Shown here: positions 6,254-27,065 of the stretch, in pieces | Position numbering within the stretch: the first letter of the stretch is position 1 | Layout: each line of letters begins with the position of its first letter | NCBI GenBank assembly: GCA_900618795.1 | Contig: UYJD01000003.1 | Coordinates: 1,122,144 to 1,186,143, forward strand | DNA: 64,000 bases | DNA from: Cyanodermella asteris | Lineage: Eukaryota; Ascomycota; Lecanoromycetes; Ostropales; Stictidaceae | Direction: 5' to 3' | Position numbers and translations under genes: made by a program | The notes under the pieces: model-generated | What the model saw: the letters and a program-made list of their open reading frames with translations, nothing else | Told to the model about the DNA's origin: nothing | Database searches by the model: none

Positions 6254-7423
6254 TCAGGCCTTCAGCTTCGCTAACATGGCTTTTCCGGCTCGCGAGTCAT
6301 TCTTACGGCCAATTTCACCGCTGATCCATTCGCCTGTCTCAGCCATGGTCTTGAGGTCGATGCCGGTCGTCATCCCGAGAGAGTGAAGTGTATACACCAA
6401 GTCTTCGGTGGCCACATTTCCGGTTGCGCCCTTGGAGTATGGACACCCTCCCAGGCCGGCAACACTGCTGTCAAAGATACGGACACCATGCTCTAGGCCA
6501 ACTAGGGTGTTCACGAGCGCCATTCCGTACGTGTCATGGAAGTGGAGGGCGATGTCTTGCGGTTGGATCCCTGCTGCGGCCAGCGCTTTGAGCAGTTTCT
6601 CCGTCCTAGGGGCAGTGCCCATGCCAGTCGTATCTGCCACGGAAACCTCATCAACACCCAGCGATAGCAGGTTTGCCGTCACTTCTGCAACCTGCTGAGG
6701 TGACACATCTGGGCCTTCGTAAGGGCATCCCAAGGCTACTGAGACATAACCCCGAACTCGAACATTATGCTCCTTTGCTGCTGCAATAATGACCTTGAAA
6801 CGTTCAATGGACTCGGCAATGCTGCAATTCGTGTTCGTTTTTGAGAATGTCTCCGTGGCTGCAGCGAAAATGGATATTTCGGTCGAGAATGGGGGAGAAG
6901 ACGTGGAGCTCGAGGCTGGAGAGGTTGTCCTTGCCGGCGACTCCTGCTCTTGCTCGGAAGGTGATGGGGACGGTAAGCCGGATGCTTCTCGGATTGTCTT
7001 GATGTAATTATCGAAGCCCTTGATGTTAGGGACGAGGAAATTGTATTTTATTGGATGACTCGCCGCGGGCGGGCGGGCAAGTATTGCTGACATGACTTCT
7101 GCTGAGCTTGCCATCTTGTATGATTAGTATTTCGACCGTGTTTGCGCAGCTCCGTCGATGCATACCTGCGGGACCCATTTCGGCGCCACAAAAGACCCAG
7201 CCTCAATATCTCTTACTCCTGTTTGCGCCAATCGTCGTATGAGCTCGAGCTTTGTCTCTTTCGAGATCGTTGTCTTCTCATTCTGCAGGCCATCGCGAGC
7301 TCCGACCTCCACAATGCGGACTTCATCTGCCCTCCGCACTGCGGAGGTTGCAAAGAAGCGAGCACATGGTCTCAAGTAGGAGGTGCCTGAGGAGCGTGTG
7401 GCACGTCGCGCGAGAGCCTGCAT
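6254..7423 (-). CDS. Hydroxymethylglutaryl-CoA lyase, mitochondrial
   Basis: Cleaves HMG-CoA to acetyl-CoA and acetoacetate in leucine breakdown. Two exons, 7423-7166 and 7114-6254, joined across a 51-nt GTATGC-AAG intron so that WVPQ runs into MASSAEV; 372 aa. The N-terminus (MQALARRATRSSG, FFATSAVRR) is a mitochondrial presequence. Visible motifs are VEVGARDGLQNE, FVAPKWVPQ, the metal/substrate site VSLGCPYEGP-like VALGCPYEGP, HFHDTYGMA, and the family signature GLGGCPYSKGATGN with the catalytic Cys. A Ser/Pro-rich insert (EQEQESPARTTSPASSSTSS) follows the first part of the barrel, an expansion I would expect in a loop. All key residues are present. Confidence 0.94.
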
Positions 7424-7657: not shown

Positions 7658-9037
7658 ATGGAGGAAGATAGAGCTCAAGCCAACCTGAGCTCAGCGCCGG
7701 AATCGGCGCAGGCAGATGTCGTTGTGGCTCAGAATGTCCAGAGGGTGCCAAAGAAGCGCTTTGTCGGCAGACGAACTGCCGCTGAGCGGGCAGCGAAAGA
7801 CGGCAGGGTGAACATCGACGATTCGGGTGCTGTTCAAGGTAGGGATATGCCATAAAGCTTTGGAGTCTGTCTTGACTAACGGAGTCCAGTCGCACCAAGG
7901 AGAACGGGCCGAGTACTGAATACGATACCCGCAGATATTCTTAATGATGAAGAGCTCAATGCCGCGATCGCTCTGTTACCATCCAACTATTCGTTTGAGA
8001 TACACAAGACAATACATCGTATACGACAGTCCGAAGCGAAGAGAATAGCTTTGCAATTTCCAGAAGGCTTACTTCTCTTTGCCACCACCATCTCAGACAT
8101 AATTACTCAGTTCTGCCCTGGGAGCGAGACGCTGATAATGGGGGATGTCACGTATGGCGCCTGTTGTATTGACGATTACACTGCAAGAGCTTTGGGATGC
8201 GACATGCTGGTACACTACGCGCACAGTTGCTTGATTCCGGTGGATGTGACCAAGATCAAGACGCTCTATGTTTTTGTCGATATCAGCATCGATACGACGC
8301 ATTTGCTGGCAACGCTGGAGCGGAACTTCGCCTCTGGCAAGACGATAGCTCTGGTTGGTACCATTCAATTCAATGCCACGATACATGCCGTCAAACTTGC
8401 TCTCGAGAAAGCCGGCTTTACAATCATGGTACCTCAAATCATGCCACTCAGTAAGGGTGAGATTTTGGGATGTACATCGCCCCGTTTCACGGGTGACAAA
8501 GCAGTGGACATGATTCTGTATCTCGGTGACGGGCGCTTCCATCTGGAATCTGCCATGATCCACAATCCCGAGACGCCTGCATATCGCTACGATCCCTATT
8601 CTAGGAAGCTTACAAGAGAGAGCTATGCTCACGAAGAAATGCAGGACCTGAGGCGATCGGCAATTGCACAAGCCAAGACTGCGAAGAAGTGGGGACTGAT
8701 ACTCGGCTCACTTGGTCGTCAAGGCAATCCCCATACTATGACTATGATTGAACAAAGATTGAATGAACTCAACATCCCGTTCATGAATATAACGCTCAGC
8801 GAGATCTTTCCTGGAAAGCTTGCCACGATGGGAGATGTCGAGTGCTGGGTGCAGATTGCATGCCCAAGGCTCAGTATCGATTGGGGCTATGCCTTTCCTC
8901 GACCTTTATTGACACCCTACGAAGCCCTTATTGCGTTGCAGGCAAGAGACGAGTGGAAGGAAGTTTACCCCATGGACTTCTACGCGAAGGATGGTCTGGG
9001 CAGAACGAAAGCACCTGCGGCACTCAGTGTGAAGTGA
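7658..9037 (+). CDS. DPH1: 2-(3-amino-3-carboxypropyl)histidine synthase subunit 1 (diphthamide synthesis)
   Basis: With Dph2 and the electron donor Dph3, makes the first intermediate of diphthamide on eEF2 by non-classical radical-SAM chemistry. Two exons: 7658-7838 and 7890-9037, with a 51-nt intron; 442 aa. The ATG at 7658 is the first in frame. Iron-sulfur cysteines are visible in [21 protein letters not shown] and [12 protein letters not shown]; other landmarks are [11 protein letters not shown] and [11 protein letters not shown]. The N-terminus has the usual basic segment [11 protein letters not shown]3 lies 5.6 kb downstream on the same strand. Confidence 0.94.
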
Positions 9038-20370: not shown

Positions 20371-21214
20371 TCACGATCGTTCTTCCTTCCAAGGCAATTT
20401 CGTCTTACCTTCCTCGAACACTCCATCTTTCGGCCGCCAGAACACCTCACAACAAAATCCGTTCTCCAACTTGAGCTCTCGTAGGATTGAAGTCCATTCT
20501 TCGCTCGGATCTTGTTTCGTAGGTGCTATATCGGTCAGCGCTACTCCGATGAAGTGACAGGCGCGATAGAATGAAGCCGACCCCGGAGCGGCCTCTACAA
20601 AAGCGTCCAATTCCATCTCTTGTGCTATTTGTGGACCCCATACAACCATAATCCTCGCAACCCCACGACGCCGGTATCTTGGCGAAACAAAGCAAGGGCT
20701 CAGCACTGTTTGTCGTCAGTCGAGCTCAGTATTGTGAAGTATGTAGAGACTTGAGCGTACAAGCGTGTGGACGTCTCATGCGAACAGGCCGAGGCTGGAA
20801 TAGCTTCGTCAACATTTGGCTGCCCATGTCCCTGTGCGGCCCTGAACTTGGTCAGTCTTCCCGTGAATCGTTTTGTGAGCTTCAAAACCTCGAGGCCAAT
20901 ACCGAACGTTCTGGCCAAAAGTCCATGATTGTCGGTTCGATCTCTCCGGGTGGGTATGGATCAGTCTTGTTGAATGCCCATTTCACCGCGCCCGCTATTT
21001 CGCCTGTCTCTATATCGTTAACCTTAACCCATCGGCTATTTGGGTTCGACTGATGACTATGCCATGATCGTTCGATGCAGCCTTCCAGTGATGGGCCTTT
21101 CAGGAACACTCACAGAGGAAAGAAAGGTTCGGTAAATGCCTGGTCTTGCACTCGAATGACGGAGGCCAAGTCGTCGTAGAAGTGGACCTCGGATAACTGT
21201 AAAGGCATTCTCAT
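20371..21214 (-). CDS. GNAT-family N-acetyltransferase
   Basis: Predicted acetyl-CoA-dependent acetyltransferase of the fungus-enriched small GNAT type; substrate unknown. Four exons work in phase: 21214-21114, 21056-20889, 20846-20761 and 20705-20371 (229 aa). Introns are 57, 42 and 55 nt with GT-AG ends; the 42-nt one is at the lower size limit. The result reads EPFFPLHQSNPNSRWVKVND, then GEIAGAVKW, FWPERS, MLTKLFQPRPVRMRRPHALL, then CFVSPRYRRRGVARIMVVWG, which is the acetyl-CoA pyrophosphate loop (RRRGVA), and FVEAAPGSASFYRACHF. A decayed paralogue lies 5 kb away in the opposite orientation. Confidence 0.87.
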
Positions 21215-22120
21215 TTCAAAGACAGAAGAGAGGCGCAACAGCAATGAACGATGAACATGCTCGGGTCTCTCAAGGAGACATGTTTGAGACTTCCAGAGCA
21301 TATATATGGCAATTTTATGGCCTAGATTGTGACTCAATATCCTCATGACCATTCACCTGTCTGCGGTCTCATTGCTATGGTCAGAACTGGAACGGCGCTG
21401 CGTCCACTGAACCATATTTGCTAGTGTGTGCGATCAGGGGTCTTTCCAGAAAGATCCTTTCATAGGCGCGGACTTGCCAACATACTTGAAAAGGTGGTCG
21501 AGAGATCAGTGGCTAGATGAGTCAGATCGGATTCATGGGAATGTTTCGTTCGTCGGCCCCAGGTTACTGGCAACAGCAAGGAACGGCAAATGCAGAAGAA
21601 CTCTGACCGCCGAGTTCGGACTGTGCTATTTGGAGCATTCATGAGACAAGTATGCCACCACATGATACCTTGTCCGAGGTGGTGCGGCAAGGAGCGACGG
21701 TGACGAAGACTGCTCCCGGCCGCGCGTGCGGTGAGCAAGGAGCAACCAGAGCGGTTTTGCTTTTTGGCAGTGCAGTTGCTCCTGCGATGGGCGGCTCTGC
21801 CCGCTAACACCAGCCACTATTACCAAAGCCTTAGCGAACAGCCTGGCCGTTGAAACTCATGTTTTCATGCCACGGAGCCGGCTAGCAGTATCACTTTTTG
21901 GCTAGCGGCCGGTCGAAGAAATGTTTGTGGCAGCACACGCAACGTCGTCCGCCAGAATATGTGCAGCCAAAATATTCATTCTTTGAGCTTCGGGATCTCA
22001 ATGCGTACACATTCCGAAGCCCACCAGAAGCCTGCTTTTCTTGAAGGCACTATACAAGACTACAGTAGGTCCAAATTGACCTCTAAGTCGCCATAGATCT
22101 TCCAATGATCTATATCTGCC
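21215..22120. other. Intergenic upstream of the GNAT gene
   Basis: About 900 bases, no supported gene. GC-rich stretch around 21690-21800. The short frames on both strands carry no recognisable domain. Confidence 0.45.
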
Positions 22121-22123
22121 GCC

Positions 22124-22138
22124 AAAAAATCCAAAAAA
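22124..22138 (-). terminator. Pol III terminator of the tRNA-Asp gene
   Basis: On the minus strand two T6 runs follow the tRNA 3' end, the first about 28 nt downstream and the second 9 nt further. T runs of this kind end Pol III transcription. Confidence 0.7.
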
Positions 22139-22175
22139 TTGATGCAGAACATCGCGACGGTTGTCTCTCGCGCCG

Positions 22176-22186
22176 GGAATCGAACC
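22176..22186 (-). promoter_or_regulatory. B box (internal Pol III promoter)
   Basis: GGTTCGATTCC on the minus strand, a perfect match to the B-box consensus. Confidence 0.8.
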
Positions 22187-22225
22187 CGGGCCGTCCGCGT
22201 TTAGTTGTCGATTGACAAGCGGAAA

Positions 22226-22276
22226 CTGAAAGAGGTTAGCGCCTGTAGCGGGGTCTTTAGAGCGGATTTGACTCAC
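22226..22276 (-). other. 51-nt spliceosomal-intron-like insert inside the tRNA
   Basis: The minus-strand insert begins GTGAGT, contains GCTAAC with the branch A about 10 nt before its end, and ends TTTCAG after a pyrimidine-rich tract. Its length equals that of the mRNA introns in the HMG-CoA lyase and DPH1 genes here (51 nt each). It sits between the D stem and the anticodon stem, not at a site used by the tRNA splicing endonuclease for canonical introns. Clean removal at GT and AG restores the tRNA. Confidence 0.8.
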
Positions 22277-22279
22277 TCA

Positions 22280-22293
22280 TAACCACTAGACTA
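22280..22293 (-). promoter_or_regulatory. A box (internal Pol III promoter)
   Basis: TAGTCTAGTGGTTA on the minus strand fits the A-box consensus. The two inserts push the A and B boxes about 64 nt further apart than in an intronless gene, within what TFIIIC is known to bridge. Confidence 0.7.
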
Positions 22294-22300
22294 CGCAAGA

Positions 22301-23608
22301 TGTAACTGATTGAATCAGCTGTAGTAGATGTTAATCGGAGAAGGAATTTGAGTATATATAGCCAAACTTATTTTCCCAGTTTTTACACGCTAGCGAAGCA
22401 AGAGGCCAGAATTGGGCGCCGGTGTCCTCAGTAGCTCTGCAACCAAGCGACCGACCACTGATTCTCTAGCTACCACTTTAGCTAGCTGTCATGCAAGACA
22501 ATATACTAGCTATATAGTATAAGGATGAGTGTCGAAAGCATGCTGGAAGGCTGGTAGAGACGTTTCTCACCCGCCTCGCCAGGATCCTAAGAAGAACGCC
22601 TCCTGCCCCAAGATATCGCACCTCCTGTAGCATCGCGTCTGTGTCAGCATAGATGACAATCGGGCCTCGAGATTGTTCTAGCAAGGCACCCTCCACTAAC
22701 ACCCTAGCAGGATGAATAGTCGAACGACGGAATGCGGTCGTTGATGTGATTGCCCGCACAAATTCTCCTCAGACAGATCCGTTGTCGAGTTACTGTGCTC
22801 TCGAGCATTGATTCAGGCCGTACTGTCTTTTATGATCTATGTTGGCACGCTACGAGGCTATTGACCTGTGATAGCTGACGTAGTGGTGCTACGGGCCGCG
22901 ACACGATTTTCGACCTCCCGCCGAGTTTGACTACCGTCTCGCTGGCAGTTTGGGGACGTCGCCAAGTTGTTATGTAACAGCCTTTGAGTAGGTATATGAT
23001 CCGTTCCTGGTGCTATACTCAAGTAGAAGCCCAGGCTATCCTATGGGGAGACACGAAAAGCTCGCTCATACACGCGAGCGACGTAGAGCAGCAGGGTCCG
23101 GAGCGTTGACGCTCATAATCGAATCTTTGAGGCTCACCACCATTCACCACGCAGAAGCGCAGTCAGGCAGGAGCGCAGCAACAGAAAAAGCGGCTACCAT
23201 GGATCAAGTACGGAAGGCTTGACTCCAGGCTCGCGATTTTCAGGTAATCACTACTCAATGTGGTGCGAGCAGCCTTCCTGCACAGTTCCCGCCCGGTGAC
23301 AGCAAGCGCCTGCAAGGTCACTGCATCGCCGAGATCATGACACCAAGACGCACAAGGGGGTCCGTATTGGGGATATGGGCCGAGTCCAGCGACCGTTCCT
23401 CGCAGACTTTTCGGATCCTCAGAGTGCAAACCATTCGCAGATTTTTGAGACCGATCTGTTCCTCCACACCATGCCTACAGATACCCAAGCACTCTCGCAA
23501 AGAGAGAACCTTACCACTTCAGATATCTCAAACCAATCGGATGAGTATCGAAATGGAGATGCCGCAACATCTTACCGCTCTCAAATGACACACGAGCCCT
23601 ATCAACCC
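22301..23608. other. Intergenic upstream of the tRNA
   Basis: About 1.3 kb without a supported gene. Some AT-rich palindromic text at 22490-22520 (CTAGCTATATAG). Nothing else recognised. Confidence 0.45.
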
Positions 23609-26526: not shown

Positions 26527-27065
26527 GAAGTAACATCCGAACGAGACTTCATTCTGGTCGGAGCTTGCATGAACGAGGGGTTTGCAGTGCTTCACAACAG
26601 CTATTGAGAGATTTGCAAAGGTCCCTCCGTCGAAGAGTGCACCGAACGGTACTGGGGCTGGCACGAGTCAACTCCAGGCAGTCGCTGGATCAAGGTGACC
26701 GACGCCGAGACTGGGGAGGTGCTCGGGGCTTCAGAATGGATAGTCCACAAAAAGGATCCATTCCCAGAACCCATTCCCAAAGCAACATGGTGGCCTGAAG
26801 GTATGCAAAGGCAGTACATCTAGCATCGATTCGTCGCTCATCCGTAACAGATCCGACGCAAGACATTGCTAACCAGTTCATGCACCGTTTCTTGAGCGAA
26901 CACCGTGTCGGATGAAGCGGCCGCATGTTCGTGAGTCAAGCCTTTCGTCTCTCCATGTTTGGCTCTGGTTGCTCACACTTGCAGTCCTGAGCATCCTCTT
27001 CACTTCACCCAAAGCACGCCGCCGTGGTGTCGGTCGCATGATGATAACATGGGGCACAAAACTGT
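26527..27065 (+). pseudogene. Decayed GNAT acetyltransferase
   Basis: Clear GNAT text: VEECTERYWGWHESTPGSRW, then IKVTDAETGEVLGASEW and PFPEPIPKATWWPEG; across a good intron (GTATGC-CAG, 26801-26850), DIANQFMHRFLSEHR; then MKRPHV; across a second good intron (GTGAGT-CAG), ILFTSPKARRRGVGRMMITW. The frame has a TGA just before the VEECTERY block and a one-base shift between LSEHR and MKRPHV. The end of the acetyl-CoA domain is missing, cut off at the 3' end of CTF8. This is a host-gene relic, paralogous to the gene at 20371-21214. Confidence 0.8.

Follow-up and report, generated by a model that had tools for sequence, protein, structure and literature searches.

A spliceosomal-type intron in a twice-interrupted tRNA-Asp(GUC) gene of Cyanodermella asteris

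In a stretch of 64,000 nucleotides (64 kb; hereafter, the window) from contig UYJD01000003.1 of the ascomycete Cyanodermella asteris, the minus strand from position 22300 to position 22165 forms a nuclear, fungal tRNA-Asp(GUC) gene interrupted twice, by a 13-nucleotide (nt) intron at the canonical position 37/38 and by a 51-nt insert that splits the D stem between nt 24 and nt 25. Whatever its fate, the insert is, by its sequence, almost certainly a spliceosomal-type intron. The reading that we favour, and consider probable, is that a spliceosomal intron resides in a tRNA gene transcribed by RNA polymerase III (Pol III), that the spliceosome would remove it, and that the resulting tRNA would be functional. 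This reading starts from the anatomy of the gene, its splice signals, a tRNA that is restored exactly upon removal of the insert, and the missing bulge-helix-bulge (BHB) motif at the insert; from these features we infer transcription, splicing and the order of the steps.

In the tRNA numbering used here nt 1 is position 22300, nt 72 is 22166, and the discriminator G73 is 22165. The gene and its signals are as follows.

22277-22300, minus strand: 5' exon, nt 1-24 (5' strand of the acceptor stem, A box, D loop, start of the 3' strand of the D stem)
22226-22276, minus strand: 51-nt spliceosomal-type intron GTGAGTCAAATCCGCTCTAAAGACCCCGCTACAGGCGCTAACCTCTTTCAG at nt 24/25, GTGAGT...GCTAAC...TTTCAG, assigned by the consensus in PMC5832005
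22271-22276, minus strand: 5' splice site GTGAGT, which fits the fungal GTRWGT and matches GTAAGT in 5 of 6 letters
22235-22240, minus strand: branch site GCTAAC with the branch A at 22236, 10 nt to the intron end, which fits RCTRAY and the range of 6-36 nt
22226-22231, minus strand: 3' splice site TTTCAG, whose acceptor CAG fits YAG
22213-22225, minus strand: middle exon, nt 25-37, with anticodon GTC
22200-22212, minus strand: 13-nt canonical tRNA intron ATCGACAACTAAA at 37/38, assigned by a pairing test
22165-22199, minus strand: 3' exon, nt 38-72, and discriminator G73
22283-22293, minus strand: A box TAGTCTAGTGG, by sequence intact and wholly upstream of the insert
22176-22186, minus strand: B box GGTTCGATTCC, by sequence perfect
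22353-22360, minus strand: upstream TATA TATATATA, at -60 to -53 from nt 1
22124-22138, minus strand: two T6 runs, candidate Pol III terminators, 27 and 36 nt past G73

With both introns removed, the joined exons, TCTTGCGTAGTCTAGTGGTTATGA + TTTCCGCTTGTCA + CGCGGACGGCCCGGGTTCGATTCCCGGCGCGAGA + G, give a 71-nt tRNA (72 nt with G73) that has four stems, the conserved residues and the anticodon GUC, and that ARAGORN calls tRNA-Asp(gtc). The acceptor stem is fully paired, with one G-U pair, the T stem is paired at 5/5 positions within the T-arm half GGCCCGGGTTCGATTCCCGGCGCGAGA, the anticodon stem TCCGC/GCGGA is perfect, and the anticodon GTC is intact; the variable loop is 4 nt long, as it also is in yeast tRNA-Asp. 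The A box, the B box and the T6 runs as a candidate terminator are those of a Pol III gene, and no sign of decay was found in the exons, the A and B boxes, the TATA element, the T runs or the 13-nt intron. The latter has the position and the anticodon-intron pair of a canonical eukaryotic tRNA intron: its GACAA can pair with TTGTC of the anticodon loop, and in BHB-type pairing it forms 3/4 central pairs, including U32-A(-3), and 4/4 outer pairs of the anticodon stem.

The insert agrees with U2-type spliceosomal introns in its donor, its branch site with the branch distance, its acceptor and its length. In a survey of fungal U3 introns the donor is GTRWGT, the acceptor YAG (mostly CAG) and the branch site RCTRAC (PMC5832005); for fungal introns generally, a branch site RCTRAY lying 6-36 nt before the acceptor is given in work cited there. 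The two strands of the window together comprise 127,898 51-mers, of which only the insert satisfies all four rules, and under a first-order Markov null such a match is expected at 2e-6 per position. Exact GT-AG removal leaves the junction GGTTATGA|TTTCCGCTTGTC. When the deletion was fixed at 51 nt and 72 registers were scored by stem pairing and conserved residues, the GT-AG register came first. The original prediction had described, with no strand given, a tRNA-Asp gene with intact acceptor, T and anticodon stems, a 13-nt intron at 37/38 whose GACAA can pair with the anticodon loop, an insert of 51 nt after nt 24 bearing GTGAGT, GCTAAC and TTTCAG, and a 71-nt tRNA upon exact GT-AG removal; sequence and ARAGORN bear out these features and place them on the minus strand.

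ARAGORN without intron options found nothing in the insert-bearing form and reported tRNA-Asp(gtc) only once both the insert and the 13-nt intron had been removed. On the raw DNA, its bacterial mode yielded no tRNA and Rfam cmscan no match, as is expected for an interrupted gene. With introns allowed, ARAGORN proposed a 49-nt intron at 33/34, which was rejected as false, the D stem being broken in it.

Removal of the insert restores nt 8-26 as TAGTCTAGTGGTTATGATT, which contains a U13-U22 mismatch. Exactly these 19 letters are found in tRNA-Gly(GCC) genes that have no interruption, in Micrarchaeota, in Diapherotrites and on one contig of the viral collection, so that the mismatch need not be a sign of decay; judged from these sequences, the restored D arm is a natural one that works in other tRNAs. 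The search with TAGTCTAGTGGTTATGATT returned DPANN-type tRNA-Gly genes only. The insert-bearing D arm had no match in pattern scans of the viral collection, and longer insert-free stretches of fungal-type tRNA-Asp were likewise not found in the viral and prokaryote collections, which contain no fungal genomes. The tRNA-Gly(GCC) gene on the viral-collection contig (L001, 74-147) is nearly identical to the Micrarchaeota genes, and this contig may thus originate from a DPANN archaeon or from a virus of one.

For comparison we used mRNA introns of the same window, namely six introns that join or adjoin Pfam domains (TBC, aminotransferase, two GT34, UreG and SNARE) and the intron of DPH1, which was judged by its reading frame, the spliced piece having no Pfam match. 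These seven introns are 46-63 nt long, have donors such as GTAAGT, GTGAGT, GTAGGT and similar ones, and carry a CTRAY branch site with 6-13 nt from the branch A to the intron end. Judged by signals and size, the insert is indistinguishable from them. Two mRNA introns of exactly 51 nt, in DPH1 and HMG-CoA lyase, had also been claimed, and both are present, the latter with an unusual acceptor:

7839-7889, plus strand: DPH1 intron, 51 nt, supported by the reading frame
7115-7165, minus strand: HMG-CoA lyase intron, 51 nt, GTATGC...ATACAAG, unusual acceptor AAG, supported by an in-frame join

In HMG-CoA lyase, joining across 7115-7165 gives the expected protein in frame, SFVAPKWVPQMASSAEV.

Which machinery could remove the insert is constrained by its size and pairing. 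At the register that restores the tRNA, the insert forms 1/4 of the central BHB pairs (as against 3/4 for the 13-nt intron), and a shift of the register by as much as 4 nt gives no more than 3/4 and would leave a worse tRNA. The site of action of the tRNA endonuclease is a BHB in archaea and in the alga Cyanidioschyzon; in ordinary eukaryotes it is 37/38 (PMC4090602). A group I or group II catalytic core takes at least 200 nt, compared to the 51 nt of the insert, and no Rfam ribozyme match was found; self-splicing is thus excluded, and since the BHB is missing as well, either the spliceosome or no removal at all remains. Taken together, the consensus features, the size match, the GT-AG register that yields the best tRNA and the lack of a BHB alternative strongly support an mRNA-type intron in a tRNA gene. 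Of the fates offered by the original prediction for the insert, splicing is the probable one, inactivation of the copy is less probable, and removal by another enzyme is disfavoured by the missing BHB.

In the favoured model, Pol III would transcribe the tRNA-Asp gene from its intact internal boxes, and the spliceosome would then excise the 51-nt GT-AG intron from the RNA so made, in the way known for intron-bearing U6, restoring the D stem. At 37/38, the TSEN endonuclease and tRNA ligase would subsequently take out the 13-nt intron. Since the reference from which TSEN measures is the mature tRNA body, and this is present only with a whole D arm, the spliceosome would most likely act before TSEN. 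When the precursor is folded in silico, with the gene taken alone, the acceptor stem mostly forms; the fold energy is ordinary (70% of shuffled inserts are at least as stable), and thus no structural role of the insert is apparent.

Several points weigh against this model. The evidence is the DNA sequence of one locus. Pol III transcripts carry neither the cap nor the carboxy-terminal domain (CTD) association that aid splicing. As several tRNA-Asp genes are usual in filamentous fungi, the cell might do without this one. The unspliced gene is predicted to fold into structures in which the D-stem pairs 11-24 and 12-23 practically never form and the donor is partly paired. Nor are the boundaries of the insert unique by structure: with deletions of free length, ARAGORN accepts 185 of 1679 as tRNA-Asp, and a dozen of them score at least as high as the GT-AG deletion, hence ARAGORN alone does not fix the boundaries. 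A bolder extension, that every tRNA-Asp(GUC) gene of this fungus or its clade carries a GT-AG intron, so that aspartate decoding would depend on the spliceosome and on two unrelated splicing machines acting in a fixed order, is doubtful.

The main rival explanation, less probable and still to be taken seriously, is that a spliceosomal intron landed recently in one of several tRNA-Asp genes, either as an introner copy or as a lariat through reverse splicing and reverse transcription, is poorly removed, and has left an inactive copy that has not yet decayed. Its weight comes from the warning that a eukaryotic tRNA gene with a short insertion in its D or T arm is in most cases only one among many synonymous genes and is regarded as a pseudogene (Yoshihisa 2014, PMC4090602). 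Moreover, Pol III transcripts are not usual substrates of the spliceosome. If the copy were inactive, however, one has to account for exons, A and B boxes, TATA, T runs and a 13-nt intron that are all free of decay, and for an intact donor, branch site and acceptor, as one would predict for an insert made harmless by splicing; an insertion of very recent date would present the same picture. As to an introner origin in particular, no sequence similar to the insert was found elsewhere in the 64-kb window.

The other alternatives carry far less weight. A non-canonical tRNA intron, cut at a BHB by the tRNA endonuclease as in archaea, nucleomorphs and Cyanidioschyzon, has parallels in the D-arm tRNA introns of nucleomorphs and red algae and in archaeal introns at 22/23 and 25/26 (PMC4090602); we consider it very unlikely here, as the pairing described above is poor both at the restoring register and at the shifted ones, the full GT-branch-AG signature would be left unexplained, and no fungal precedent was found. 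That a chance insertion merely resembles an intron would gain from the screening of windows for oddities and from the 185 deletions that yield an Asp call. As the structure score tolerates so many registers, we took a conservative chance bound, multiplying the Markov value per register by 185, which still gives about 4e-4 (a tighter bound is about 2e-5); at fixed length, moreover, no register scores better than GT-AG, and coincidence is thus most improbable. Hardly more credible is a tRNA sequence lying inside a Pol II transcript, whose intron would be spliced as Pol II RNA and not as a tRNA precursor. A permease gene and a GNAT-like gene do flank tRNA-Asp on the same strand, but no coding exon or family match turned up in the tested neighbourhood, and exact restoration of the tRNA by the intron requires an RNA selected as a tRNA.

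Around the gene we also observed pieces of GNAT-like acetyltransferases at 20374-20715 (minus strand) and 26801-26876 (plus strand), which flank it on opposite strands and share similar RRRGV-R-M motifs, and which are possibly paralogues. The nearby intergenic segments 22450-22520 and 21860-21915 are rich in CTAGC/GCTAG words.

The splicing of tRNA and that of mRNA are taught as separate systems. If the favoured model is true, U6 would not be the only short, uncapped Pol III transcript that the spliceosome accepts, the locus would be a natural test of spliceosome recruitment without Pol II, and intron gain would reach beyond Pol II genes. Even as an inactive copy, the locus would record the landing of an intron in a tRNA gene and be a datum on the spread of introns. 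We found no record of a tRNA gene with a spliceosomal intron in the open-access literature, and a text search of papers for the letters of the tRNA-Asp sequence gave no match. U3 and U6 were the only small structured RNAs then known to be often interrupted by introns (Canzler et al. 2017, PMC5832005).

The closest known system is that of the U6 small nuclear RNA genes, which carry spliceosomal introns in fission yeast and other fungi (Tani and Ohshima 1989; Potashkin and Frendewey 1989; Canzler et al. 2016; all as cited in PMC5832005), and pre-mRNA splicing mutants of S. pombe impair the splicing of the U6 precursor (Potashkin and Frendewey 1989, as cited in PMC5832005). As in our case, a small structured RNA transcribed by Pol III bears a GT-AG intron of the mRNA type; unlike U6, the host here is a tRNA with internal promoter boxes and a second, TSEN-type intron in the same RNA. 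The introns of fungal U3 small nucleolar RNA, which are common in Pezizomycotina (PMC5832005), share with the insert their donor, branch and acceptor consensus, whereas their mean length is 92 nt as opposed to 51 nt, and their host is not a tRNA. The non-canonical tRNA introns of archaea, nucleomorphs and Cyanidioschyzon merolae (PMC4090602) likewise combine an intron in the D arm with one at 37/38, but those of known mechanism use a BHB and the tRNA endonuclease and have no GT-branch-AG signals, while the insert has no BHB. Introner-like elements of ascomycetes (PMC4457414, PMC9860276), for which tRNA targets are not mentioned in these two papers, are plausible as the origin of a new intron in a fungus, although the insert has no other copy in the window. 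Compared with these systems, what would be new here, if the insert is spliced, is the tRNA as a host class for a spliceosomal intron in a Pol III RNA, together with a second splicing system acting on one transcript; the precedents are U6 and U3, and not a tRNA.
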